A DNA stretch of 64,000 nucleotides. Origin: Lysobacter sp. MMG2 (GTDB taxonomy: Bacteria; Pseudomonadota; Gammaproteobacteria; Xanthomonadales; Xanthomonadaceae). Positions 1 to 14,838 of the stretch are shown piece after piece; the first letter of the stretch is position 1; every line of letters starts with the position of its first letter. Position numbers and translations under genes: made by a program. The notes under the pieces are model-generated. The model was not told the DNA's origin, did no database searches, and was given only the letters and a program-made list of their open reading frames with translations. The stretch spans positions 496,001 through 560,000 of the forward strand of contig NZ_JAERQY020000001.1 of assembly GCF_016735495.2 (NCBI RefSeq), given 5' to 3'.

Positions 1-836
1 AGGCTCGCGCCCTGGCGCGCACCGAGGCGACGCACGGCGGCGACGAGTTCGTTGTCGAGGATGTGGTCTTCGCGGATCGACGCAAACGTGCGGCGCGTCG
101 GCCGCGTGCGGTCGGTCGGAAGATCCAGCACCGGGCCGCCGTCGGCAAAACGCTTGAGCCAGTACGCCTCGTCGGAACGGTACGTCGCACCGTGCGGATG
201 TTCGGCCTCGGCCAGCGCGTAGTCGGCGAAGGATTCGGCGGGCGGCAGCGGCTGCGCGCTCTGGCCCACCGCCTGCGTATACAGCGTGCCCAGTTCGCGC
301 ACGATCACCCACCACGACCAGCCGTCGCAGACCAGGTGATGCGCGGTGAGCACGAGGTGGTGATGGTCGTGCGACAGACGCAGCAGTTCGGCGCGCAGCA
401 GTGCGCCGTGGTCGAGATCGAACGGCGTCTCCACGACCTCGCGCGCGTGCGCGGCGATGCGTGCGGCGCGCTCGGCGTCGTCCAGTGCGGACAGGTCGAT
501 CAGCGGCAAGTCGATGGCGCGCTCGTCGCCGACGCACAGCGTCTTGCCGTCGGGGCCGAAGTTGGCGCGCAGGATGTCGTGCCGCACCACCAGCCCGGCC
601 AGCGCGGCCTGCAGCGCATCCACGGACAGCGGACCGCGGAAGTCCAGCGAGATCGACTCGTTGTACGCCAGCGAGGCGTCGTTGCCGAGGCTATCGGCCA
701 GCCAGACTTCGCGCTGCGGTTCGGTGGTGGGCGCTACGCGGGAGAGCGGGCCGTCGGCGAACGGATCGTAGTCGACGGCCGTGTCGGTTCCATTCGACTT
801 GTCCAACCTGCCCTTATCGAACACGGCTGCATTCAT
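1..836 (-). CDS. NRPS, N-terminal condensation domain (partial, runs off the window)
   Basis: This is the first 278 residues of a nonribosomal peptide synthetase; the rest lies beyond base 1. After about 35 unstructured residues it enters a condensation domain: QREVWLADSLG near residue 41, AYNES near 57, LVVRHDILRANF near 82 and the catalytic HHxxxDG motif (HHLVCDG, residues 166-172). The motif is intact, so the domain should form an amide bond. The ATG at 836 overlaps the stop codon of the upstream synthetase as ATGA, which indicates translational coupling. By position its donor substrate is the acyl group left on the preceding KS-AT-ACP-aminotransferase protein. What amino acid it joins, and how many modules follow, cannot be seen. 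Confidence 0.9.
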   Translation of the reverse strand, partial: MNAAVFDKGRLDKSNGTDTAVDYDPFADGPLSRVAPTTEPQREVWLADSLGNDASLAYNESISLDFRGPLSVDALQAALAGLVVRHDILRANFGPDGKTLCVGDERAIDLPLIDLSALDDAERAARIAAHAREVVETPFDLDHGALLRAELLRLSHDHHHLVLTAHHLVCDGWSWWVIVRELGTLYTQAVGQSAQPLPPAESFADYALAEAEHPHGATYRSDEAYWLKRFADGGPVLDLPTDRTRPTRRTFASIREDHILDNELVAAVRRLGARQGAS

Positions 837-3800
837 GCGCTCACCTTCATGTACTTGCCCGGCTCCGCCGGGTTCGGCACGAACCAGGCCGGCGTGCCGT
901 CGGGCTCGCGGCCCAGGCGCGCGCCGGGCACGACGGGCTTGCTCGCGTCCATCACCGTCTTCGGCGTGGCCGCGCGGCGCGGCAGCAGTTCCATGTCCTG
1001 CAACTCGCTCACCGATTCCTTGAACGCGGTGGCGATCCGCGCGATGTCCTCGTCGCTGTGCGCCGTGGTGATGAAGCACGGGAAGTTGTCGAGGATGTGG
1101 ATGCCGCGCAGGCGCATCGCCGCGAACAGCAGGTCCTGCAGCGGGTGGTTCTCGGGCCAGTGGGTCTTCCACACCGACGCGTACTGCTTCACCGACACCG
1201 GCGCACCGACATCGGCGCAGTAGGCGTTGATGTCCGCCGCCAGCGCTTCGGCCTTGGCGTTGAGGCGCTTCTGCAACTCGCCGCCGTCGGCCTTGAAGTG
1301 TTCGAGCACGGCCTTGGCCGCGACCAGCGCCAGCGGATGGCGCACGAAGGTGCCGGCGAAGTACGTCACGCCCACCGTCGGCACAGAATCGTCGCCGTAC
1401 TGCCAGTGGCCGCCGTCGAGCGCGTCCATGTATTCGCGCTTGCCGGCAATCACGCCGATCGGGAAACCGCCGCCGACGACCTTGCCGTAGGTCGCGATGT
1501 CGGCCTTGATGCCGAAGATCGCCTGCACGCCGCCCGGGTTGGAGCGGAAGCCGGTGACCACTTCGTCGAAGATCAGCAGCGCGCCGTTGTCCTGGGTGAG
1601 CTGGCGCAGTTCCTTCAGGAACTCGACCGGACGGAAGTCCAGGCGGCGGCTCTGCACCGGCTCGATCAGCACCGCGGCGATCTCGCCGATGCGCGAGCGG
1701 ATGATCTCCATCGACTCCGGCGTGCCGTAGTCGAGCACCAGCACGTTTTCGGCCGTGTTGCGCAGAATGCCTGGCGCCGCCGGCACCGCGCGCAGCGACT
1801 TGGTGCCGCGCACGATCACTTCGTCGACGATGCCGTGATAGGAGCCGGTGAACAGCACCACCGTGCTGCGCGCCGTCACCGTGCGGGCGATGCGCAGCGC
1901 ACCGAGCACCGCTTCGGAACCGGTGTTGCACAGCGCGGCGCGGTCGTGGCCGGTGAGCTCGCACACCAGCTGCGCGACTTCGCCGGCGACGGGGTGCTGC
2001 GGGCCGATCTCGTAGCCCTTGTCGAGCTGCTCGCGCACTGCGTCGAGCACGAAGTCCGGCTGCCAGCCGAACAGGCTCATGCCGAAACCGTTGAGCGCGT
2101 CGATGTACTCGTTGCCGTCGATGTCGAACACGCGTGAACCCTTGGAGCGCTCCACCACGATCTGGTAGACGATCTCCTTGGTCAGCGGACGGAAGCCGTT
2201 GACCACGCGCGGATCGGCGAGCTGGGCGCGGTTGGCCTGCGTGTACTCCTTCGACTTGCGCGTGCGCGCGATGTAGCGGTCGAAGAACGTGTCGAGCTTG
2301 GCCTTCTGCTGCGGCGAGAGGTCCAGCTCGGCGTTGTTGTCGATGCGTGCGATCGCGCCAAAGGCCTTCTTGACGTCGTACTTCTGCTGCACGGCACCGG
2401 TGTCCTCCTCGCCTTCTGCGGGCTTGGGCGCGGCGGCCGGTGCGGATGCGACCGGAACCGGCGCCGCGGCGACGGGCTGCGGTGCGGGCACGGCGACGGG
2501 AGCCGTCGCGACCGGCGCGGCGACGCCGCCGGACAACAGCGCCAGCTGCTGCGCCATCAACTGCATCTGCTGGGCGATGACCTGGCGGGTGAAGTCGTTG
2601 CCGCCATCGAGCGCAGGCAATGCGACCGGCGCCATCGCGACCGGCGCGTACGCGGCAGGTGCGGCGACGGCCACCGGCGCGGCGGCCACGGGCGCGGGTG
2701 CGGCTTCGGCCGGCAGTTCCGCATCGAGCATTCCGGCCAGGCGATCCAGGCTGGCGCAGTCGCCCATCAGCTGGCGGAAGTTCACCGGCACGCCGAATTC
2801 CTTCTGCAACTGCACCGCGACCTGGGTCAGCATCAGGCTGTCCAGGCCCAGCTCGATGAAGTTGGTGTCCGCGTCCGCGTCGGTCATGTCGAAGCCGGCG
2901 ACGTTCTCGAACAGGCCGCGCAGTTGCCCGACCAGGCGCTCGCGACGGCCGGTGGCGGCCGCGGGGGCGACGGGGACGGCGGCGGGCGTGGACTGCGGCA
3001 TGACGGTCTCCAGTACGGTCGGGGTTCGTGCGGCGGCCGCGACGGCCGGATGGGGAATGACGTTGCTCGGGTTCGCGGGTACTGCCTCCACCCAATAACG
3101 TTGTCTCTCGAATGGATAGGTCGGCAGGCGCAGGCGATGGCGAATCGCACGCGTGTCGAAGGCCGCCGGATCCACCGCGGCGCCCTGGCTCCACAGCTTT
3201 CCGGCGGCGGCGAGGACATCGCGGCACTCGCTGGCGGGGTTGTCGGTGAGCGTGGCGACGGCGGCGATGCGCTGCTTCTGCACCAGCGGCTGCTGGCGCG
3301 CCAGCGCGTTCAGCGTGCCGCGCGGGCCGACTTCGAGCAGCACGCGCCCGGCGTCGGTCTCGCCTTCCAGCAACGCCTGCAGCGCGCTGGAGAAGCGCAC
3401 GGGCTCGCGGAGGTGACGGGCCCAGTAGTCGGGCGAGGTGGCCTCGTCTGCGTCCAGCGCCGCGCCGGTGACGGTGGAGACGATGGGCCGCGTGGGCGGA
3501 TTCAGGCGCACGGCGGCCACGGCTTCGCGGAACGGCGCGACCACCGGTTCCATCATCACCGAGTGGAACGCGTGCGAGGTGCGCAGCGCACGGCAGGCGA
3601 TGCCCTCGCCTTCCAGCTGCGCCTGGAATGCCGCGATGGCATCCGACGGCCCGGCCACCACGCACGCCAGCGGCGAGTTCTCCGCGGCCAGCGACAGCGT
3701 TTCGGGCAGGCGCGACTGCACGGCGTCCGCCGGCAGCCGGATCGACAGCATGGAACCGGCCGGCTGCGCCTGCATCAGCGCGCCGCGACGGGCGATGAGA

Positions 3801-6800
3801 TGCAGCGCGTCGCGCAATTCGAACACGCCCGCCAGCGTCGCGGCGACGAACTCGCCGATGCTGTGGCCGATCATCGCCGCCGGCTCGATGCCGCGGCTGA
3901 TCCACAGCTTCGCCAGTGCGTACTCGATGGCGAACGTCGCCGGCTGCATCACCGAGGTCGGCAGCAGCGCTTCGGGTTCGTCGCCGAACATGCGTTCGCG
4001 AAGGTCGAAGCCCAGATCCGTGTGCAGCAGCTGCGCGCATTCATCGAGGGCGGCGCGGAAGACCGGCTCGCTCTCGTACAGGCTGCGGCCCATGCCGGGG
4101 TATGTCGCGCCCTGCCCCGGGAACATGAAGACGATGCCGCCCGCGCGCGCCGGTCGGCTGCGTGCGGCTTCGGCCTGCGTGTCGGGCGCGCGCAGCGCGT
4201 CGATCGCGCCGGACACGTCGTCGGCCGCGATGGCGATGCGGTGCGCGAATGCCTTGCGGCCCACGGCCAGCGTCCAGGCCACGTCGGCAAGGTTGAGGTC
4301 GCGATGCGCGTGGAGATGATCGGCCAGCCGGTTCACCGCCGCGCCCAGCGCCGCCGGCGTGCGTGCGGAGAGCACCAGCAGCTGCGCGCCGACGGCGTCG
4401 CCGGATTCGGGCAGTAGCGGCGCTTCCTCCAGCACCGCGTGCGCGTTGGTGCCGCCCAGGCCGAAGGAACTCACGCCTGCGCGGCGCGGCGCGTCGCCCT
4501 CGTTGTCCCATGCGCTCATGCGCGCATTGACGACAAAGGGCGTGCTGGCGAAGTCGATGGTCGGGTTGGGTGCTTCGAAATGGATCGTCGCGGGAATGCG
4601 CTTCTCGTGCAGCGCCAGCGCAGTCTTGATCACGCCCGCCGCGCCGGCGGCCGTCACCATGTGGCCGACGTTGCTCTTGAGCGAGCCGATGCGGCAGAAG
4701 CCGGTGTCGTGCGTGCCGCGACGGAACGCGCGCGTGAGGCCCTCGACTTCGATCGGGTCGCCCAGCGGCGTCGCCGTGCCGTGCGCTTCCACGTAGGAAA
4801 TGCTGCGCGCGTCGATGCCGGCGCGGTCGTGCGCCAGCGCGATCACCGCCGCCTGCCCTTCACTGCTGGGCGCGGTGAAGCTGGCGCGGTTGGCGCCGTC
4901 GTTGTTGAGCGCGGCGCCGCGGATCACGGCGTACACGGGGTTGCCGTCGGCAATCGCATCCGACAGGCGCTTGAGCAGCACCACCGCCGCGCCGTCGCCG
5001 AACACCGTGCCCTTCGCGTTCGCATCGAACGTGCGCGTGTGGCCGTCCGGCGACAGCATCGATCCTTCCTGGTACAGATAGCCGCTGCGCGGCGGGCACG
5101 TGACCGCGACACCGCCGGCCAGCGCCATGTCGCACTGCCCGGACTGCAGGCTCTCCACCGCCTGCGCGATGGCCACCAGCGAGGTCGAGCACGCCGTGTG
5201 CACGCTCACGGCCGGGCCGGTGAGGTTGAGCTTGTGCGCCACGCGCGTGGCGATGTAGTCCTTCTCGTTGCCCAGCATCACCTGCAACGCACCGACGCGG
5301 TTCACCAGCTCCGGATGCGCGGAGGCGTGACGCTGGAAATAGGTGGCGTTGTTCATGCCGCCGAAGATCCCGGTGACGGTGGCGCCGGTGGAATCCGGTG
5401 CATGGCCGCCGCGCTCCAGGACTTCCCAGCACAGCTCCAGGAAGATGCGCTGCTGCGGATCCATCAACTCCGCCTCGCGCGGGCCGATGCCGAAGAACGC
5501 CGCGTCGAACAGCTCCACGTTGTCGATCACGCCGCGTGCGGCGATGTAGGACGGGTCGCTGCGGTCGCTGGCGCTGACTGCCGGATCGAGTTCGTCGATG
5601 CGGAACTTCGTGATCGAGTCGCGGCCTTCGCAGAGGTTGTTCCAGAATCCTTCGACATCGTCCGCGCCGGGGAAGCGCCCGGCCATGGCGATGATCGCAA
5701 TGGGTTCGCGTGCATCGACCGCGCTGCGGCGCGCAGGCGCCTGCGCGGCCTGCACGCCTTCGAGCACGGCCGCGAGCCGCGCGGGCGTCGGGTTCTGGAA
5801 GATCGTCGGCGCCGCCACACGCGGGCCGGCGTCGTCGGTCTGCCAGCCTTCGTTGCGGATCTGCTCGGCCAGGCGCACCGCCAGCAGCGAGCTGCCGCCG
5901 AGTTCGAAGAAGTTGTCGTCGCGACCGACGCCCTCGATGTCGAGCAACGCGCCGAAGGCTGCGCACAGCTTCGTTTCCAGCGGCGTGACGGGCGGCGCGT
6001 GATCGACGGTGAGCTCCGGGCGGCGGCGATCGGGCGCCGGCAAGGCGCGACGGTCGACCTTGGCGTTCGCGGTCAGCGGCAATTCGTCCAGGCGCACGTA
6101 GCGCGTGGGCACCATGTACGGCGGCAGGGACGCGGCCAGGTGCGCGCGCAGCTGCGGTGTGTGCGCCTCCACGCCCGTGGGGACGTAGTACGCGACCAGG
6201 CGCTTCTCGCCGGGGAAATCCGCGCGCGCCACGACCGCGCACTGCGCGATCGCCGGGTGGCGCGAAAGCACGGTCTCGATCTCGGTCAGTTCGATGCGGT
6301 AGCCGCGGATCTTCACCTGCGCATCGGTGCGGCCGACGAACTCGATCAGGCCGTCGTCGCGGTAACGCACCTGGTCGCCGGTGCGGTACAGCACGTCCGC
6401 ATCGTCGCGATAGGGATTGGCCACGAAGCGGTCGGCATTGAGTTCGGGGCGTTTGAGATAACCGCGCGCCACGCCGACGCCGCCCACGCACAGCTCGCCG
6501 ATCACGCCGGCCGGCAACGGCTGCAGGCGGCGGTTGAGCACGTAGGCGCTGGCATCCTGCAACGGCCGACCGATCGGGATCGACGCCGTGCCTTCGGGCA
6601 GATCGCGCGGGATCTCGTAGGAGGTGCACATGATCGTGCACTCGGTCGGGCCGTAGCCGTTGTGCAGGCGCAACGTCGGCGAGATCGCGTGCATGCGGCG
6701 CACGTGGTCGACGGAGAGCGCCTCGCCGCCGATGATCAGGTCGCGCAGGCCGGCAAAGATCGTGGCGTCTTCGTCCACCACGGCATTGAACAGCGCAGCG

Positions 6801-8134
6801 GCCATGATGCCGGCGTTGACATCGTGGCGCTCGATGGTCTCGCGCAGGCGCGTGGCGGTCGGCGCCACTTCGTCGTGCACCACGATCGTGCCGCCGTTGA
6901 ACAGCGTGCCCCACAGCTCCAGTCCGGAGATGTCGAAGCCCAGCGGCGCCTGGTGCAGCATGCGCGTTTGCGTGTCGAGGGTGACGTAGTCGATGCCGTG
7001 CAGGCGGCGCACCAGTGAGCGGTGGCGGATCTCCACGCCCTTGGGCACGCCCGTGGAGCCGGAGGTAAACAGCACGTAGGCCAGCGAGTCGCCGTCCGTG
7101 CCGGGATCGAACGCGGCCGGGGCGTCATCGCCGTGGACGTTCACGCGCGCCGGTTCGCGCGGCAACGCGGAGGCGTCGATGGCGGGGTCTGCCACGAGCG
7201 TGCGGACACGCGCGTTGTCGATCATGAAGGCCAGGCGATCGGCGGGCAGCGCAAGATCCAGCGGCAGATACGCGCCGCCGGCCTTGATCACGCCGAGCAG
7301 CGCGACGACGGCATCGAGCGAGCGCGGCAGCGCCACGCCGACGATGTCGCCCTTGACGACGCCCGCCGCGCGCAGGCGCGTGGCCAGCGCGGCGGCACGA
7401 CGATCGAGTTCGGAATACGTGATGTGCGCATCGCGATGCTCCACCGCGACCTTGTCCGGCCATGCCGCCAGTGCCTGTGCGAAGCAGGCGTGCACGGTGT
7501 CGTGCAGCGTGCGCGCGGGCGGCGCCACGCCCCACTCCTGCAATTGGCGGGCGCGGTCGACGGGATCGAGTGCGTCGATACGCGAAAGCGGCTGCGCGGG
7601 AGCGGATGCGATCGCACGAAGGACACGCGTGGCCGCATCGCCGATCAGCAGCGCGGCCTCGTGCGTGAGCGGTGCGCGGAAGGTGACGTGCAGGCCGCCG
7701 TCGTCCAGGTGCCACTGCGATGCGGCGAACGCCGGAAGCGATGCTTCCGGTGCTTCATTCACCGCCCACACGCACGGCTGTGTCGATTCGGCGGCGGCGT
7801 TCAATGTCGCACCGACATGCGCGGCGGCGAGCGATGCCGGCGCGATGCGCGCCTGCCGCCATGCATCGCCGCACGACAGCGTCACCAGTACTTCTTCGCT
7901 GCCTGAGAGCCAGGATTCCACGGCCGCGAGCGCGGCGGCGAGTGCATGGGCGCGGGTCAGGCCGTGGCCGGCGAGCGCGGACGCGAGGCCGTCATCCACA
8001 TCCAGCGTCAGCGCACGCGATGCGTCGCCGGCGGCATCGGCGTGCTGCGGCAGCACGTCCAGCAATGCGGAATCGATGGCCGGCGTCGCGCCGGGAATGG
8101 CCTGTGCCCGAACCGCTTCAGCCCGCGTACTCAT
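833..8134 (-). CDS. Hybrid NRPS-PKS synthetase with fused beta-aminotransferase (C remnant-A-PCP-KS-AT-ACP-AMT)
   Basis: This 2,433-residue protein starts or extends a lipopeptide- or polyketide-peptide-like product. Residues 1-200 resemble only the end of a condensation domain and show no HHxxxDG. The A domain (about 215-700) has all core motifs: FTSGSTGVPKG, GFDISGLELWG, NGYGPTE, YRTGDQ, and NAKVDR. The PCP has LGGSS (Ser749). The KS has Cys982, His1118 and His1158. The AT has GHSIG (Ser1425) and HAFH (1521-1524), the malonyl-CoA signature. The ACP has GLDSL (Ser1766). An Ala/Pro-rich linker (1808-1910) precedes a class-III PLP aminotransferase with FDEV (Asp2190) and the PLP lysine at about 2218. 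No KR, DH or ER is present. Family knowledge from mycosubtilin and microcystin synthetases says such an AMT aminates the beta-keto thioester. By my alignment the A-domain code reads roughly D-I-L-I-I-G-G-I-M, partly glycine-like; I do not trust it as a prediction. AAGGAG lies 8 bases before the ATG. Confidence 0.95.
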   Translation of the reverse strand: MSTRAEAVRAQAIPGATPAIDSALLDVLPQHADAAGDASRALTLDVDDGLASALAGHGLTRAHALAAALAAVESWLSGSEEVLVTLSCGDAWRQARIAPASLAAAHVGATLNAAAESTQPCVWAVNEAPEASLPAFAASQWHLDDGGLHVTFRAPLTHEAALLIGDAATRVLRAIASAPAQPLSRIDALDPVDRARQLQEWGVAPPARTLHDTVHACFAQALAAWPDKVAVEHRDAHITYSELDRRAAALATRLRAAGVVKGDIVGVALPRSLDAVVALLGVIKAGGAYLPLDLALPADRLAFMIDNARVRTLVADPAIDASALPREPARVNVHGDDAPAAFDPGTDGDSLAYVLFTSGSTGVPKGVEIRHRSLVRRLHGIDYVTLDTQTRMLHQAPLGFDISGLELWGTLFNGGTIVVHDEVAPTATRLRETIERHDVNAGIMAAALFNAVVDEDATIFAGLRDLIIGGEALSVDHVRRMHAISPTLRLHNGYGPTECTIMCTSYEIPRDLPEGTASIPIGRPLQDASAYVLNRRLQPLPAGVIGELCVGGVGVARGYLKRPELNADRFVANPYRDDADVLYRTGDQVRYRDDGLIEFVGRTDAQVKIRGYRIELTEIETVLSRHPAIAQCAVVARADFPGEKRLVAYYVPTGVEAHTPQLRAHLAASLPPYMVPTRYVRLDELPLTANAKVDRRALPAPDRRRPELTVDHAPPVTPLETKLCAAFGALLDIEGVGRDDNFFELGGSSLLAVRLAEQIRNEGWQTDDAGPRVAAPTIFQNPTPARLAAVLEGVQAAQAPARRSAVDAREPIAIIAMAGRFPGADDVEGFWNNLCEGRDSITKFRIDELDPAVSASDRSDPSYIAARGVIDNVELFDAAFFGIGPREAELMDPQQRIFLELCWEVLERGGHAPDSTGATVTGIFGGMNNATYFQRHASAHPELVNRVGALQVMLGNEKDYIATRVAHKLNLTGPAVSVHTACSTSLVAIAQAVESLQSGQCDMALAGGVAVTCPPRSGYLYQEGSMLSPDGHTRTFDANAKGTVFGDGAAVVLLKRLSDAIADGNPVYAVIRGAALNNDGANRASFTAPSSEGQAAVIALAHDRAGIDARSISYVEAHGTATPLGDPIEVEGLTRAFRRGTHDTGFCRIGSLKSNVGHMVTAAGAAGVIKTALALHEKRIPATIHFEAPNPTIDFASTPFVVNARMSAWDNEGDAPRRAGVSSFGLGGTNAHAVLEEAPLLPESGDAVGAQLLVLSARTPAALGAAVNRLADHLHAHRDLNLADVAWTLAVGRKAFAHRIAIAADDVSGAIDALRAPDTQAEAARSRPARAGGIVFMFPGQGATYPGMGRSLYESEPVFRAALDECAQLLHTDLGFDLRERMFGDEPEALLPTSVMQPATFAIEYALAKLWISRGIEPAAMIGHSIGEFVAATLAGVFELRDALHLIARRGALMQAQPAGSMLSIRLPADAVQSRLPETLSLAAENSPLACVVAGPSDAIAAFQAQLEGEGIACRALRTSHAFHSVMMEPVVAPFREAVAAVRLNPPTRPIVSTVTGAALDADEATSPDYWARHLREPVRFSSALQALLEGETDAGRVLLEVGPRGTLNALARQQPLVQKQRIAAVATLTDNPASECRDVLAAAGKLWSQGAAVDPAAFDTRAIRHRLRLPTYPFERQRYWVEAVPANPSNVIPHPAVAAAARTPTVLETVMPQSTPAAVPVAPAAATGRRERLVGQLRGLFENVAGFDMTDADADTNFIELGLDSLMLTQVAVQLQKEFGVPVNFRQLMGDCASLDRLAGMLDAELPAEAAPAPVAAAPVAVAAPAAYAPVAMAPVALPALDGGNDFTRQVIAQQMQLMAQQLALLSGGVAAPVATAPVAVPAPQPVAAAPVPVASAPAAAPKPAEGEEDTGAVQQKYDVKKAFGAIARIDNNAELDLSPQQKAKLDTFFDRYIARTRKSKEYTQANRAQLADPRVVNGFRPLTKEIVYQIVVERSKGSRVFDIDGNEYIDALNGFGMSLFGWQPDFVLDAVREQLDKGYEIGPQHPVAGEVAQLVCELTGHDRAALCNTGSEAVLGALRIARTVTARSTVVLFTGSYHGIVDEVIVRGTKSLRAVPAAPGILRNTAENVLVLDYGTPESMEIIRSRIGEIAAVLIEPVQSRRLDFRPVEFLKELRQLTQDNGALLIFDEVVTGFRSNPGGVQAIFGIKADIATYGKVVGGGFPIGVIAGKREYMDALDGGHWQYGDDSVPTVGVTYFAGTFVRHPLALVAAKAVLEHFKADGGELQKRLNAKAEALAADINAYCADVGAPVSVKQYASVWKTHWPENHPLQDLLFAAMRLRGIHILDNFPCFITTAHSDEDIARIATAFKESVSELQDMELLPRRAATPKTVMDASKPVVPGARLGREPDGTPAWFVPNPAEPGKYMKVSA

Positions 8135-8541
8135 TCCACCTGCTCCTTCTGCAACTGCCGGACGGCGCAGGCGCCGTCGGCAACGATCACGTCCAAACCG
8201 GCGACGATCGGCCGCCGGTCATGCGTTGAAAGCCGGTTGTCGGGCCGGCTCGGCGACGTCATTGCGCGCCGATGCGTTGCCCGGCCGATGGCGGGCGTGT
8301 CGTTGCGCACAACGTGTCCGGCACCTCGACGCGGGACGCCAGGCCCCTGCGCGAACGGAAATTGCCGGAACTCCACGACATCGCTCACCCCACATGCGGC
8401 ACGACCGATGCCACCCGGCATCTGTCTCTTCCCTGCCCCTCTCATCAGTCCAAACGGTTCTCGCCGGATCAAACGGCCATTCGCCGGCGACAGTGCGTGA
8501 CGACGGCCACCGCGCTAGGATGGCGCCGACAAGGGGGGCCC
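8135..8541. other. Divergent intergenic region between the synthetase and the J-domain gene
   Basis: These 407 bases separate two divergent genes and must hold promoters for both, but I see no convincing sigma-70 pair. On the minus strand a 43-codon reading frame (ATG at 8262, stop at 8131-8133) overlaps the synthetase start as ATGA. Its product has no motif that I recognise, so I do not call it a gene. It could act as a leader that couples translation into the synthetase. Confidence 0.5.
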
Positions 8542-9237
8542 ATGAGCCAGGACTTCGCGCTTCTGTACATGCAGCTTGGCCTGCATCCGGACTGCAGCCT
8601 CGAAGACCTCAAGCGCGCGTACCGTATCCGCGTGGCCGAACTGCACCCGGATCGCCACCTCGACCGGCCTTCCTCGAACGACGCAAGCGCCCTCACCGAA
8701 CTCACTGCGCTGTATTCCGGCGCGATCCGCTTCCATCGCATTCACGGGCGTCTTCCGGGATCGACGTTGCGCAGCCCGGTCACGGTGCAGCGAGCGGTTC
8801 CCGATGCAGCCACGCCCGCGCAGGCGCAGGCACAGCAGACGCATTCCCGGACGATGTCCGCCACGTCGCACGAAACCCCCACCAGCGCTACGCCGCGCAT
8901 CGCGGTGCTGAGCGTGCTCGTGCTGGTGGTCGTGATGGTGGTGCTGCACTGGTCCGAGACCGCACAGGTGACGCCGCAGGCCGACGCCAATGGCGCGGTG
9001 GCCGAAACCGCCGATCCGGATGCGCCCCGCCTGGAACTGGGCATGGAGGAAGCGGCGGTCGTCGCGATCCAGGGCCCGCCGGAACGCGTGCAGGACGATG
9101 TGTGGAACTACGGTTCCTCGTGGGTGCGCTTCGAGGAAGGCCACCTCGTCGACTGGGCAAGCGTGCCGCCGAACCGGCTGATGACGCCCACGCCCAGGCC
9201 GCCGACGCCGGAAGAGGACGAGGCGCAGGAGCCCTGA
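8542..9237 (+). CDS. J-domain membrane protein with a BamE/SmpA-like C-terminal segment
   Basis: The 231-residue product begins with a short J domain (residues 5-65) carrying the HPD tripeptide at 35-37, the motif that stimulates DnaK ATPase. A Thr/Ala/Gln-rich linker follows, then a single strongly hydrophobic helix at about 120-135. The remaining segment (about 160-205) runs GMEEAAVVAIQGPPERV, then WNYGSSWVRFEEGHLVDW. This spacing recalls the small lipoprotein fold of the SmpA/OmlA/BamE family. The topology suggests a J domain in the cytoplasm and the C-terminal segment in the periplasm, which is inference. A strong AAGGGGGG ribosome site precedes the ATG. Substrate and partner are unknown. 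Confidence 0.75.
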   Translation: MSQDFALLYMQLGLHPDCSLEDLKRAYRIRVAELHPDRHLDRPSSNDASALTELTALYSGAIRFHRIHGRLPGSTLRSPVTVQRAVPDAATPAQAQAQQTHSRTMSATSHETPTSATPRIAVLSVLVLVVVMVVLHWSETAQVTPQADANGAVAETADPDAPRLELGMEEAAVVAIQGPPERVQDDVWNYGSSWVRFEEGHLVDWASVPPNRLMTPTPRPPTPEEDEAQEP

Positions 9238-9882: not shown

Positions 9883-11277
9883 TTACCGGGACCCGCGCTG
9901 GAACAGCACCACCTCGACCGTCTGCAACAGGATGATCAGGTCGAACACCAGGCCGTGATTCTTCACGTAGAACAGGTCGAACTTGAGCTTCTCTTCGGCA
10001 TCGCGCACCGAAGCGCCGTACGGGTAGCGCAGTTGCGCCCAGCCGGTCAGGCCCGGCTTCACGCAGTGGCGCACGGCGTAGTAGCGGATCTCGCGACTGA
10101 GCATGTCCACGAACTGCGGACGTTCCGGACGCGGGCCGACGATGCTCATCTCGCCGCGCAGGATGTTGAACAGCTGCGGCAGTTCGTCCAGCCGCGTGAG
10201 GCGGATGAACTTGCCCACGCGCGTGGTGCGATCGTCGCCGCGTTGCGCCCAGCGCGCCACGCCGTCGCCTTCGGCGTCCACGCGCATGCTGCGGAACTTG
10301 ATCAGCTCGAACGGGCGCCCGCCTTCGCCGATGCGCGTCTGCTGGTAAAGGATGGGACCGCGCGATTCGAGCCGGACCAGCAGCGCGACCACCACCATGA
10401 ACGGCCAGGCCACCAGCAGCAGCGCGGACGCGGCCAGAACGTCGAACAGCCGCTTGTTCATGCAGCGCGAGGTGGAGTGGTCGAAACCGCCTGAAAACAC
10501 CAGCCAGGACGGATCGCACAGGTTGGTGGTGACGATGCCCGCCTCGCGCTCGAAGAACGTGGACAGGTCGGTCATCGCCACGCCGCGCTGCACGCAGGTC
10601 AGCATTTCTTCCATCGGCAGGCCGCCGCGGCGCTCGTCCGGCGCGACCACCACTTCGCTGATCTGCAAGCGGTGCGCAACTTCCGACAGCCCGTCGGGCG
10701 CGACCACCTGCATCGACGTCGGCACGCACGATTCCTGCCCGTTGATCGGCACGAAACCGACCAGCGTGAAGGCGCGTCGGTCGCTGCCGCGGCGCATGCG
10801 CGTGTTGATCAGGTCCGCGTTGTGGCCGGCGCCCAGCACCAGCACGCGCCGTCTGAACAGGTCACCGCTGAACACGTGCATCACGCAGAAGCGCAGCAAT
10901 GCCATCCCGAGCAGGCCCAGTACCATCGCGATCACGATGACGCCGCGGCCGATGTACGCGGTAGGGATCAGGTAGTAAAGCACCATCAGCCCGATGCCGC
11001 CGATCGCGAACGACACCAGCAGACGCAGCGCGAATTCGAACCGGTTCAGGCGCACGTGCACCTGGTACAGCCCCAGCGCCGACATCGCGGTGGTGACGAA
11101 CATCGCCACCAGCGCCGCGCGCAGGGTGAGGTTCTCGGAAAAGATTTCGTGCCCCTCGGGGTCGTTCATGAAGCGCAGCCACGCGGCACCAATGACCGCC
11201 GCCATCAGCAGCAGCACTTCGAGCAGCCACAACAGCAGCAGCGCCCGGTTCTTCAGACTCGCCTTGCCGAACGTCAT
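9883..11277 (-). CDS. Polyprenyl-phosphate glycosyl-1-phosphate transferase (exopolysaccharide priming, GumD/WcaJ/EpsB-like)
   Basis: This 464-residue integral membrane enzyme should start a polysaccharide repeat by moving a sugar-1-phosphate from a nucleotide sugar to undecaprenyl phosphate at the inner membrane. The N-terminal half has four or five hydrophobic helices (to about residue 135), then a CoA-binding-like Rossmann segment with VLVLGAGHNADLI. The C-terminal catalytic domain begins at KRLFDVLAASALLLVAWPF and holds LIKFRSMRVD, the DELPQLFNILRGEMSIVGPRPERP core and KPGLTGWAQL. The family includes the PEP-CTERM-associated EpsB group. The start MTFGKASLKN at 11277 was preferred over an upstream in-frame start because the hydrophobic region begins soon after it. 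The likely partners are the nucleotide-sugar genes at 12.4-14.8 kb. Confidence 0.9.
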   Translation of the reverse strand: MTFGKASLKNRALLLLWLLEVLLLMAAVIGAAWLRFMNDPEGHEIFSENLTLRAALVAMFVTTAMSALGLYQVHVRLNRFEFALRLLVSFAIGGIGLMVLYYLIPTAYIGRGVIVIAMVLGLLGMALLRFCVMHVFSGDLFRRRVLVLGAGHNADLINTRMRRGSDRRAFTLVGFVPINGQESCVPTSMQVVAPDGLSEVAHRLQISEVVVAPDERRGGLPMEEMLTCVQRGVAMTDLSTFFEREAGIVTTNLCDPSWLVFSGGFDHSTSRCMNKRLFDVLAASALLLVAWPFMVVVALLVRLESRGPILYQQTRIGEGGRPFELIKFRSMRVDAEGDGVARWAQRGDDRTTRVGKFIRLTRLDELPQLFNILRGEMSIVGPRPERPQFVDMLSREIRYYAVRHCVKPGLTGWAQLRYPYGASVRDAEEKLKFDLFYVKNHGLVFDLIILLQTVEVVLFQRGSR

Positions 11278-11413
11278 GGACCGCACTCCCACGACGTGCG
11301 CACGCGGGCGCACGCACGTCTGTCAAACAACTGGTCGAAGGTTCGGAGGATCCCCGGCCCGGTGGGCCGTGCGTCGCGCGTCATGGACATGACGTTCCCC
11401 CTCTGCGACGCCA

Positions 11414-12244
11414 TCACGACAGGTACAACGCCCTCTCGCCGGCCGTCCGGCCAGCGGAGTTCCCAAGCGGGTGCGCAAGCAAACATTCGACCGCGGCCTC
11501 ACGCGGCGCCGCTACGGCCGCGGTCCATCGCTCGCCTACATCGAGCATGGCCAGGCGCACGCTGCACGCCGCAGGTTCCCGCGCGTGCCCGGCCAGTAAA
11601 AACTCCGCGCCGGCAGCGGCGTGGAAACTGCTCATCTCGCGCGCCAGGCCGATGCCTTCGGCCTTGAGCAGGGCTTCCTTGCGCACCCACAGCGCCAGCA
11701 GCGCGCGGCTGCAGGCCGGTTCGGGAAAGCCCGCCAGTGACTGCCATTCGTCCGGATGACAGACGCTGGCCGCGATGCCGGGCAATTCGGCCGCGCGGAA
11801 CGCGGCTTCGATATCCACGCCCACCGGCCCCGCCGCGCACAGCGCGAAGGCCGCCACGCCGTCGGCATGGCTGAGGCTGGTGCGCACGGGCCGGCCGCGC
11901 AGGTGCACGCCGGGCAACCACGGGGCGCCTTCGGCATCGCGCGCGATGACGACCGACGCCTCGTCCAGATCCAGCGCCCGCGCCACGAAAAGCCGGTGCA
12001 GCGCATACGTCAGCGCCAGCGCTTCACGGTCGGCCGCGAAACGGCGCTGACTCACGCGCTGGCGGTGTGGCGCGTCGAGCATCGCCCAGGCTTGGTCCAG
12101 CCAGGGGTGCCAGTCGCGCAGGTCGACGACGGCGGTCGCACAGGCGCCGGGCGCCATCGGCCCGCACGCGAACGCCTCGCGCAGCGAACACGCCGATGCT
12201 TCCTGTCGCCATGCGACCGCCACCCTCGCCCCCTGTCCGGTCAT
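11414..12244 (-). CDS. Sfp-type 4'-phosphopantetheinyl transferase
   Basis: The 276-residue product carries both signature blocks of the Sfp/Gsp class: SLSHADGVAAFAL followed by GPVGVDIE at about residues 124-148, and WVRKEALLKAEGIGL at about 187-201. The aspartate and glutamate of VDIE and the glutamate of RKEA bind magnesium in this family. Such enzymes move phosphopantetheine from CoA to the carrier-protein serines of NRPS and PKS lines. The gene lies about 3.3 kb from the start of the hybrid synthetase, which needs exactly this activity at Ser749 and Ser1766. The link is by proximity; the enzyme could also serve other carrier proteins. It is transcribed toward the sugar transferase, with 136 bases between them. 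Confidence 0.92.
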   Translation of the reverse strand: MTGQGARVAVAWRQEASACSLREAFACGPMAPGACATAVVDLRDWHPWLDQAWAMLDAPHRQRVSQRRFAADREALALTYALHRLFVARALDLDEASVVIARDAEGAPWLPGVHLRGRPVRTSLSHADGVAAFALCAAGPVGVDIEAAFRAAELPGIAASVCHPDEWQSLAGFPEPACSRALLALWVRKEALLKAEGIGLAREMSSFHAAAGAEFLLAGHAREPAACSVRLAMLDVGERWTAAVAAPREAAVECLLAHPLGNSAGRTAGERALYLS

Positions 12245-12391: not shown

Positions 12392-13774
12392 ATGGACACG
12401 ACCGATTTCGGGGAAAGGCTGGTCCACCGGCCCACACGCGACACCCACCGGCGCGATGCCGACGCGGCAGCGCAAGGCGGAGGCGTCGCCGCATCGCCAC
12501 CCTCGTTGCAGACGGTGCGCGTGGGCGTGGTCGGCCTGGGGTATGTCGGATTGCCGTTGGCGGTGGCCTTCGGCCGCCAGTACGACACCGTGGGCTTCGA
12601 CATCAACGCCCAGCGCGTGGCGGAACTGCGCGACGGGCGCGACAGCACGCTGGAAGTGGAACCGGCCGACCTGGCCGAAGCCCGCCGCCTGCGATGCAGC
12701 AACGACCTGGACATGTTGCAGCGATGCAACGTCTACATCGTCACCGTGCCCACGCCCATCGACGCGGCCAAGCGCCCGGACCTGGGCCCGCTGGCGCGCG
12801 CGAGCGAGGCGCTGGGCAAGGTGCTCAAGCGCGGCGACGTCGTCGTCTACGAATCCACCGTGTACCCCGGCTGCACCGAGGAAGTCTGCGTGCCGATCCT
12901 GGAGCGCGCCTCCGGGCTGGTGTTCAACCGCGACTTCTTTGCCGGCTACAGCCCGGAGCGCATCAACCCGGGCGACCGGGAACACCGCCTCACCAGCATC
13001 CTGAAGATCACCTCCGGCTCGACACCGCAGGTGGCGGATTTCGTCGATGCGCTGTACGGCTCGATCATCGAGGCCGGGACGCACAAGGCCAGTTCGATCA
13101 AGGTCGCCGAAGCGGCGAAGGTGATCGAGAACACGCAGCGTGATCTCAACATCGCGCTGGTCAACGATCTGGCGATCCTGTTCAACAAGCTCGGCATCGA
13201 CACGCTGGAAGTGCTGCAGGCAGCGGGAACGAAGTGGAACTTCCTGCCGTTCCGGCCGGGGCTGGTCGGTGGTCATTGCATCGGCGTGGACCCCTACTAC
13301 CTCACCCACAAGGCGCAGGAAATCGGCCACCATCCGGACGTGATCCTCGCCGGCCGCCGCACCAACGACGGCATGGGCGCGTACATCGCCAGCGAGGTCG
13401 TGCGACTGATGGTGCGCAAGGGCATCAACCCGGTGCAGGCGCGCATCCTGATCCTCGGACTGGCATTCAAGGAAAACTGCCCCGACCTGCGCAACACGCG
13501 CGTGGTCGACATCGTGCATGCACTGCACGGGTACAACGCGCAGGTGGACGTGCACGATCCTTGGGTGAATGGCGGCGATGCCGCGCACGAATACGGCATC
13601 ACACCGGTTCCCACGCCCGCACAGGGCGGCTACGACGCCGTGATCGTCGCGGTCGCGCACCGCGAATTCGCCGAACTGGGCGGGAACGGCGTGCGCGCAT
13701 TCGGCAAGCCCGTGTCGGTGGTCTACGACGTCAAGTACGTGCTTCCGCGCGATGCGGTGGACGGCCGGCTGTGA
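12392..13774 (+). CDS. UDP-sugar (UDP-GalNAc/GlcNAc-type) 6-dehydrogenase, TviB/WbpO-like
   Basis: This enzyme oxidises C6 of a UDP-hexose or UDP-HexNAc to the uronic acid with two NAD, supplying an acidic sugar for surface polysaccharide. A Rossmann NAD motif ([14 protein letters not shown]) begins at about residue 46, and [10 protein letters not shown] lies at about 115. The central helix region has [15 protein letters not shown], and the active site has [15 protein letters not shown] with the catalytic cysteine. The C-terminal domain starts at [19 protein letters not shown]. At 460 residues the length is normal. About 40 disordered N-terminal residues precede the fold, so the true start could lie downstream. 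The next gene starts at or just after the stop codon, so the two form an operon. Exact substrate is not settled by sequence. Confidence 0.9.
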
Positions 13775-13776
13775 GC

Positions 13777-14838
13777 ATGAAGGTCCTGGTCACGGGTACG
13801 GCAGGGTTCATCGGATCGCATGTCGCGCAGGCGCTACTCGCCCGCGGCGACGAGGTGATCGGCTTCGACAACCTCAACGACTATTACGACGTGCGACTCA
13901 AGCGCGCACGGCTGGCCCGCTTCGCCGATCATCCCGGCTACACGCACGTGCACGGTGATCTCGCCGATCGTGACGCGGTGGAAGCGCTGTTCCGCGACCA
14001 TCGCCCCGCGCGCGTCGTGCACCTGGCGGCGCAGGCGGGCGTGCGTTATGCCGCCGAGAATCCGCACGTATACGTGGCGAGCAACGTCACCGGGTTCCTG
14101 CATGTCATCGAAGGATGCCGGCATCACGGCGTGGAGCACCTGGTTTATGCATCGACCAGTTCGGTATACGGCGCGAACACCGCGATGCCGTTCTCCGAAC
14201 ACCAGCACACCGAACATCCGCTCACGCTCTATGCCGCGACCAAGAAAGCCAACGAGGCGATGGCGCACAGCTACGCGCATCTGTACGGATTGCCATGCAC
14301 CGGGCTGCGCTTCTTCACCGTGTATGGTCCGTGGGGCCGGCCGGACATGGCGTTGTTCCTGTTCACGCGCGCGATCCTGGCGAGCGAGCCGATTGCGGTG
14401 TTCAACCACGGTCGCCACAAGCGCAGCTTCACCTATGTCGACGACATCGTCGCCGGCGTGGTGCGCGCGCTCGATCGCGTGCCCGGTGTGGATACGCGGT
14501 GGGACGGGCATTCGCCCGATCCCGCGAGCAGTGGCGTTGCGCCCTATCGGCTGTACAACATCGGCAGCGGTGAAAGCGTCGAACTGTTGCGCTACATCGA
14601 AGTGCTCGAACAATGCCTCGGGCGCAAGGCGACGATGCGCATGCTGCCGTTGCAGGCCGGCGACGTGCCCGCGACCGAAGCCGATTGCACGGATCTCGCA
14701 CGCGACATGGGCTATGCACCCAGCGTGACGGTGGAAGAAGGCATTGCGCGATTCGTGGCGTGGTATCGCGAGTATTACGGCGATGCGCCGGAGCATGGAC
14801 GCGAGTCGAACGCCGCAGCGGAAGTGACCGCGGGTTGA
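13777..14838 (+). CDS. NAD-dependent epimerase, UDP-glucuronate 4-epimerase-like
   Basis: The 353-residue short-chain dehydrogenase/reductase has the nucleotide motif TGTAGFIGSHVA at its N-terminus, the family marker GFDNLNDYYDVRLKRARL, the catalytic Tyr-x-x-x-Lys as YAATK, and FFTVYGPWGRPDMALFLFTRAIL followed by FNHGRHKRSFTYVDDIV. The last block is typical of CapI/LspL-type UDP-glucuronate 4-epimerases. With the dehydrogenase just upstream it would make and then epimerise a uronic acid for the polysaccharide started by the sugar transferase. A GTG at 13771 overlaps the previous stop codon (GTGA). I chose the ATG at 13777 because it leads directly into the conserved MKVLVTG; the GTG would add two residues. 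Confidence 0.9.
   Translation: MKVLVTGTAGFIGSHVAQALLARGDEVIGFDNLNDYYDVRLKRARLARFADHPGYTHVHGDLADRDAVEALFRDHRPARVVHLAAQAGVRYAAENPHVYVASNVTGFLHVIEGCRHHGVEHLVYASTSSVYGANTAMPFSEHQHTEHPLTLYAATKKANEAMAHSYAHLYGLPCTGLRFFTVYGPWGRPDMALFLFTRAILASEPIAVFNHGRHKRSFTYVDDIVAGVVRALDRVPGVDTRWDGHSPDPASSGVAPYRLYNIGSGESVELLRYIEVLEQCLGRKATMRMLPLQAGDVPATEADCTDLARDMGYAPSVTVEEGIARFVAWYREYYGDAPEHGRESNAAAEVTAG

Follow-up and report, generated by a model that had tools for sequence, protein, structure and literature searches.

A hybrid nonribosomal peptide synthetase-polyketide synthase (NRPS-PKS) line, encoded by two adjacent genes of Lysobacter sp. MMG2, lies inside an exopolysaccharide (EPS) locus. Our best explanation, which we hold with about even confidence, is that the line is dedicated to this locus and that its short peptide is most likely joined to the polysaccharide. 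The window, i.e., the whole stretch of 64,000 nucleotides that was analysed (positions 496,001 to 560,000 of contig NZ_JAERQY020000001.1, in a genome of 4.17 Mb), contains gene 1 in full, and its start cuts gene 2. One match to the line was found in each of the 12 genomes of the genus examined, including the window's own and one conspecific; the genome of the window holds only two condensation (C) domains, both within gene 2; and EPS genes accompany the line in unrelated orders. Taken together, these observations are best explained by a line that makes a part of the EPS. We infer the polysaccharide link and the attachment step from gene neighbourhood only. The first-pass annotation of this DNA, which treated gene 1 as the maker of a beta-amino building block, is incomplete in that the EPS setting went unseen, and the position of the line inside an EPS locus changes the likely role of its product.

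The EPS locus extends over about 472-511 kb of the contig; its genes flank gene 2 and lie upstream of gene 1. The two genes of the line and the genes next to them in the window are as follows.

1..836, continuing to contig position 490708, minus strand: 5' end of gene 2, a second NRPS gene with the order C-A-T-C-T-TE-T (Pfam, motifs)
833..8134, minus strand: gene 1, hybrid NRPS-PKS with the order A-PCP-KS-AT-ACP-AMT, 2433 amino acids (open reading frame, Pfam)
8539..9237, plus strand: small DnaJ-domain-like protein, within the open reading frame 8272-9237, start set by eye
9883..11313, minus strand: priming glycosyltransferase TIGR03013 (EpsB_2), 536 bits, cut-off 393
11414..12244, minus strand: 4'-phosphopantetheinyl transferase (PPTase), ACPS superfamily
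12392..13774, plus strand: UDP-sugar dehydrogenase
13774..14838, plus strand: NAD-dependent nucleotide-sugar epimerase, within the open reading frame 13234-14838, start set by eye

Stretches L010-L011 of the genome encode glycosyltransferases (TIGR03088-like ones and a TIGR03087-like one), a GT2 protein, a TIGR03097-like ligase, a Wzc-like kinase, an outer-membrane protein that resembles TIGR03016, a beta-helix protein, a deacetylase-like protein and a Wzx-type flippase, and two hydr1/hydr2-like alpha/beta hydrolases directly follow gene 2. A Wzx/Wzy-type set (priming transferase, flippase, chain-length kinase, ligase/polymerase and glycosyltransferases) is present together, the kinase and the ligase/polymerase being assigned from matches below the family cut-off. 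TIGR03013 is matched above its curated cut-off, and TIGR03016, 03018, 03087, 03088, 03097, 03100 and 03101 are matched below theirs. The locus shares TIGR03013 and weaker relatives with XrtA-type EPS loci (TIGR03013, 03015, 03016, 03018, 03097, 03100, 03101). It differs from them in the below-cut-off scores of the other members, in the NRPS-PKS line that it contains and in the lack of an exosortase: PF09721 has no match in the window's own genome, for which an exosortase/PEP-CTERM system proper was rejected. The DnaJ-domain-like gene, on the opposite strand, separates the NRPS-PKS gene from the EpsB_2 gene. Short repeats whose translations carry 'VIPAKAG' and 'SFRWNDGD'-like strings, recognized by eye, occur between EPS genes at about 3500-4019 and 6600-7200 of L011.

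The EPS setting recurs well beyond the window. We collected 76 loci from genome contigs, 52 of which have the aminotransferase (AMT) domain, and searched the whole genome for 45 (L019, L025, L026, L040, L046, L055 and L067 are outside this count). In 31 of the 45 genomes the line has a priming transferase (PF02397) within 20 kb, against 1.18 expected from random placement, although the genomes are not independent: five are of the window's genus, six are Larkinella, and near relatives are included. The distance is at most 10 kb in 19 genomes and at most 5 kb in 12. The 31 genomes span Lysobacteraceae, Rhodanobacteraceae, Thiomonas, Ideonella, two Rhizobium, Azorhizobium, Larkinella and Spirosoma. 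On the PKS tree the EPS label changes 8 times, compared with 15.1 times when labels are shuffled, and 0 of 500 shuffles gave a value as low; the chain-length protein of L024 led to its EPS label, and loci that were truncated or unsearched were scored as not EPS. As a control, a priming transferase is present in the examined flank of 19 of the 52 AMT loci and of none of the 24 loci without AMT, a weak control because the latter are largely cyanobacterial and partly at contig ends. A hydr2-like hydrolase is found within 30 kb in 25 of the 45 genomes, each time below the family cut-off. Exosortase is present in nine of these genomes, in two on the contig of the line (45 and 339 kb away) and in the others on different contigs.

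Individual loci illustrate the setting. Just upstream of the line in Thiomonas delicata, the XrtA-type EPS families TIGR03007, 03015, 03016 and 03018 are all matched above cut-off; in T. bhubaneswarensis TIGR03016 and 03007 are above cut-off upstream and the priming transferase is 97 kb away. Larkinella rosea has, upstream, a Wzc-like kinase, a WcaJ-like transferase and four GT1-group glycosyltransferases. Nearby genes in Rhizobium encode a flippase, a DegT sugar aminotransferase, a pyruvyl transferase and a WbaP-like transferase. Two Larkinella genomes (G017:C12 and G029:C7) have the line twice, the second copy being nearly full-length and on another contig.

Annotated plasmids provide further examples. 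Of the 45 plasmids that match the AMT, twelve were examined, and seven have the line within an EPS locus or next to one: V. paradoxus VAI-C, Aliiroseovarius M344, Loktanella salsilacus, Rhodobacter CZR27, Rhizobium CCGE532, Rhizobium SL42 and Jannaschia M317. Glycosyltransferases, a PPTase and a Wzz/Wzc-type protein are each found in all seven; in the stretches examined, an annotated sugar transferase, a flippase and a TIGR04325 methyltransferase are each found in five. The Burkholderia arboris plasmid record with an AMT match is unannotated. An Agrobacterium vitis plasmid carries a stand-alone AMT, at 45% identity, in a siderophore-like cluster; judging by this one distant annotated record, the EPS setting is apparently a trait of the nearer family and not of AMT domains generally. 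On three plasmids without an EPS locus near the line, from two phyla, genes for a copper oxidase, cupredoxin or copper ATPase are close to it.

Other neighbours of the line were also compared (single-linkage protein cluster 6 of this comparison is contaminated by antisense frames). A methyltransferase family, TIGR04325 where annotated, adjoins the line in L057, L066, L072, L102, L104, L105, L107 and L109-L111, and two representatives of it had no tblastn match in the window. A cupin/2OG-type gene that adjoins the line in some loci was dropped, its representative likewise having no tblastn match in the window. A phage origin was rejected, since none of the phage records covers as much as 80% of the query at a single site.

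Several results weigh against a dedicated EPS role. No priming transferase lies within 20 kb in 14 of the 45 genomes, some of them at contig ends, and the exceptions to the EPS pairing in Hydrogenophaga, Aquabacterium and Ktedonosporobacter seem to be genuine. The AMT domain is present in only 18 of 99 genomes of the wider family and is thus no general part of EPS. The plasmids of Variovorax WDL1 (L102) and RA8 (L104) and Spirosoma linguale pSLIN02 (L103) have no EPS locus within 18-20 kb, the WDL1 flank containing one lone family-1 glycosyltransferase. No known product was found for the line, and the evidence is that of neighbourhood, not chemistry. Among the scanned neighbours there is no obvious enzyme that joins a peptide to a sugar, although no search aimed at such enzymes (e.g., MBOAT) was made.

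What gene 1 would contribute can be read from its domains. The open reading frame is free of internal stops, and the order of adenylation (A), peptidyl carrier (PCP), ketosynthase (KS), acyltransferase (AT), acyl carrier (ACP) and AMT domains given at first pass was confirmed by the open reading frame and Pfam. All of the following are on the minus strand.

7505..8134: N-terminal region of about 210 amino acids, the fastest-evolving part of the protein, without a Pfam match
6059..7480: adenylation domain A1, code DILIIGGIMK (Pfam, code alignment)
5765..6022: PCP with GGSSL motif, limits approximate (Pfam, motif)
4430..5707: ketosynthase with Cys982, His1118 and His1158 (Pfam, alignment)
3263..4132: acyltransferase with GHSIGEF and HAFH (malonyl-type) motifs (Pfam, alignment)
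2726..2926: ACP with GLDSL motif (Pfam, motif)
980..2257: class-III aminotransferase, MycA-type AMT (Pfam, PDB comparison, alignment)

In protein coordinates, the Pfam matches are AMP-binding (219-560) with AMP-binding_C, ketoacyl-synt (810-1060) with its C-terminal part, Acyl_transf_1 (1335-1624), PP-binding in two stretches and Aminotran_3 (1991-2304). By eye, the N-terminal region is a putative remnant of a C-domain C-lobe. The malonyl-type HAFH motif of the earlier description was found at residues 1521-1524, and the pyridoxal 5'-phosphate (PLP) lysine that it had attributed to the fused class-III aminotransferase is residue 2218 (codon at window 1481-1483). Also as described earlier, ketoreductase (KR), dehydratase and enoylreductase families are absent among the 11 Pfam families that match the protein. 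The AMT follows the ACP of this KR-less extension module. The gap from AT to AMT is 285-382 amino acids in 48 of 50 relatives, which leaves room for a linker and the ACP only and none for a KR; it is longer in L069 (433) and L043 (492).

The AMT domain has the class-III aminotransferase fold (Aminotran_3/GSA-like). Among all PDB sequences, the mycosubtilin AMT matches it with 384 bits, and the best glutamate-1-semialdehyde (GSA) aminomutase reaches 181 bits. The PLP Lys, Asp, His and Thr are invariant in the alignment of all 52 AMT loci, and the phosphate-site Asn is replaced by Ser in seven, every one from Bacteroidota. Upstream, the AT motifs are kept in 51 of 51 loci, the KS His in 50 of 50 and the KS Cys in 49 of 50, the remaining one being a gap. 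In comparisons of the window gene with three close relatives, the ratio of nonsynonymous to synonymous substitution rates (dN/dS) is 0.07-0.08 for the AMT, 0.09-0.13 for the KS and 0.13-0.22 for the A domain; the AMT, with the lowest value, is thus the most conserved large domain. The N-terminal 210 amino acids have a dN/dS of 0.39-0.56, five to eight times the AMT value. We conclude that gene 1 is a real and conserved line that is probably active in beta-amination. Amination of a beta-keto thioester by the AMT is what we infer by analogy with MycA. An amino acid is loaded, extended by one malonyl unit and not ketoreduced, and the AMT of the MycA type is strongly constrained, so that a beta,gamma-diamino acyl unit is the natural prediction for the product of gene 1. 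The corresponding part of the first-pass annotation stands on that footing, whereas the glycine starter, on which its conditional diaminobutyrate-like unit depends, is not supported.

An amino-acid adenylation domain, not a fatty acyl-AMP ligase, loads the line of gene 1 (TIGR01733, 432 bits, cut-off 317). A-domain codes were extracted by alignment and set against reference codes, and the amino-acid types given here are presumed assignments. Out of 15 such reference codes, the A1 code DILIIGGIMK comes closest to what we take to be the Gly code (6/10), followed by Val (5/10), and fits none. Glycine loading had been a weak suggestion at first pass and is not established: A1 lacks Gln and Trp, both of which the Gly code has, a presumed Val-type code is found in 21 of 41 A-first relatives, and the Gly-type code is that of gene 2. 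DILIIGGIMK is common to the window, L012, L013, L014 and L022 and, by eye, L114, L115 and L116; the loading code of L112 and L113 is, by eye, DILVLGGILK.

Among the 41 A-first relatives, the codes are DA(L/F)W.GGTFK in 21, DVQ..A..(V/I)K in 7, DPEH.AKISK in 6 (Larkinella), that of the window in 4, DFWNIGMVFK in 1 (Ideonella) and others in 2 (L016 and L037). We take the first of these to be Val-type, the second Pro-type and DFWNIGMVFK Thr-like, and assign no amino acid to DPEH.AKISK. In Rhizobium the A domain sits on a separate gene and has a presumed Ile-type code; that of Azorhizobium is presumed Val-type. Of the 25 A domains that stand outside the AMT protein with a C domain on either side, 16 have DILQ, 6 DVWH and 3 variants; DILQ is presumably Gly-type and DVWH Ser-type. 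Thus the loading code has changed repeatedly (Val-, Pro-, Thr-, Ile-type and unassigned codes), and the following A domain is mostly Gly- or Ser-type. From these codes, most lines are predicted to make [variable amino acid]-malonyl-(beta-NH2)-Gly or -Ser.

A comparison with the cluster beyond base 1, proposed at first pass, was carried out and found gene 2; the line continues past base 833. The stop of gene 1 and the start of gene 2 overlap (ATGA at 836-833). By Pfam, gene 2 has two C, one A, three carrier (T) domains and one thioesterase (TE), and motif positions give the order C-A-T-C-T-TE-T, with the TE between the last two carriers. The second C domain has no A domain of its own. HHxxxDG is intact in both C domains and GGSMGG in the TE. 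The A code, DILQLGVVWK, is presumably Gly-type.

A route consistent with these domains can be proposed. A1 would load an amino acid, presumably Val-type in about half of the A-first relatives, and KS-AT would add one malonyl unit which, with no ketoreductase, would leave a gamma-amino-beta-keto thioester on the ACP. The MycA-type AMT would turn the ketone into an amine to give a beta,gamma-diamino acyl chain. Gene 2 would then add glycine, as its presumed Gly-type code suggests, and end in the A-less C-T-TE-T module, the carriers being activated by the PPTase of the locus. The resulting doubly cationic short peptide would most likely be attached to a polysaccharide repeat unit, for example to the amine of an amino sugar, and exported with the polymer. 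Attachment might be catalysed by the condensation module that lacks an A domain, by the TE or by the two neighbouring alpha/beta hydrolases. As a speculation, the sugar amine might be supplied by sugar aminotransferases (Rhizobium, Aliiroseovarius) or, in the window's own locus, by the deacetylase-like protein. More tentatively, and somewhat short of even confidence, the line may represent a widespread class of NRPS-PKS that decorates EPS in Pseudomonadota and Bacteroidota, in which short beta,gamma-diamino peptides, built on carrier proteins and moved to the sugar repeat unit by an A-less condensation-thioesterase module, would give a cationic 'peptidyl-EPS'.

The main rival is that the line makes a small diffusible peptide (a signal, antibiotic or enzyme inhibitor) and that the genes merely share a super-locus, perhaps for co-regulation during biofilm growth. 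The domain types are indeed those of natural-product lines, the TE of gene 2 with its intact motif could release a free acid, family members without EPS neighbours exist, and bacillomycin BamA and the siderophore-like cluster are among the more distant AMT matches, at about 45% identity. We nevertheless consider it the less likely reading, since EPS neighbours recur with differing gene sets in Lysobacteraceae, Rhodanobacteraceae, Burkholderiales, Rhizobiales, Rhodobacterales and Cytophagales, and the line is in every genome of the genus examined (12/12).

A smaller rival is a metal chelator, free or held by the EPS, in which the vicinal diamine and the amides would be a Cu(II) ligand. Vicinal diamines are known chelators, and copper genes lie near the line on three plasmids in two phyla; two of the three are, however, near relatives with shared gene order, plasmids often carry copper genes, and no copper family is present among the scanned proteins of the window's locus. 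We regard copper chelation as improbable. The same holds for a different chemistry on the line itself, in which the AMT would shift an amine as an aminomutase or the diamino thioester would close to 4-aminopyrrolidin-2-one before gene 2. The Aminotran_3/GSA-like fold, the gamma-amine beside a beta-ketone, the free gamma-amine in A-first lines and the ease of five-membered lactam closure are consistent with it. Yet the AMT is much nearer that of MycA than the GSA aminomutase (384 against 181 bits), and in L041 and L025 a C domain precedes the A domain, so that the gamma-amine would be acylated, while the AMT is still conserved. That the AMT is inactive or acts on another intermediate, an objection raised at first pass, is very improbable, as no sign of it and no point in its favour was found, the catalytic residues are kept in 52 of 52 loci and the domain is under the strongest purifying selection of the large domains (dN/dS 0.07-0.08).

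Of the solved structures, the AMT of mycosubtilin MycA (PDB 6kfm, 6kfr, 6kfu; iturin/bacillomycin family) is closest to the AMT of gene 1. The starter of MycA is a fatty acid, whereas that of gene 1 is an amino acid, and the product of MycA is a secreted lipopeptide whereas the line described here sits in an EPS locus. Microcystin McyE and nodularin NdaF also have a fused AMT on a hybrid line but have another starter and a methylated chain. In MycA the AMT is placed between the PKS and NRPS parts and acts on a beta-ketothioester, with Gln as the amine donor, as summarized in PMC3870968. The domain layout itself is not new. The order A-CP-KS-AT-CP-PLP1 is tabulated for Pedobacter heparinus, and longer forms for Salinisphaera and Thiorhodococcus, with products given there as antiSMASH predictions (Milano et al. 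2013, PMC3870968). Pedobacter heparinus C6XWU5 and others have, by their description in that paper, the same domain order and probably belong to the same family; its section on such lines mentions no EPS setting, unlike the line here. In a literature search of titles and abstract openings, which covered few subscription journals, no account of an NRPS-PKS as part of an EPS locus was found. The terms 'ribosomal peptide' and 'polyketide' are absent from the main text of Haft et al. 2006 (PMC1569441).

An NRPS-PKS line is generally assumed to produce a free natural product. The pairing described here is found again in several orders of two phyla, where the sets of EPS genes differ. If the peptide does form part of the polymer, the line would represent a new route by which unusual amines are placed on slime or biofilm and a source of diamino acid building blocks, and it would be a reason to relabel many 'orphan' clusters.

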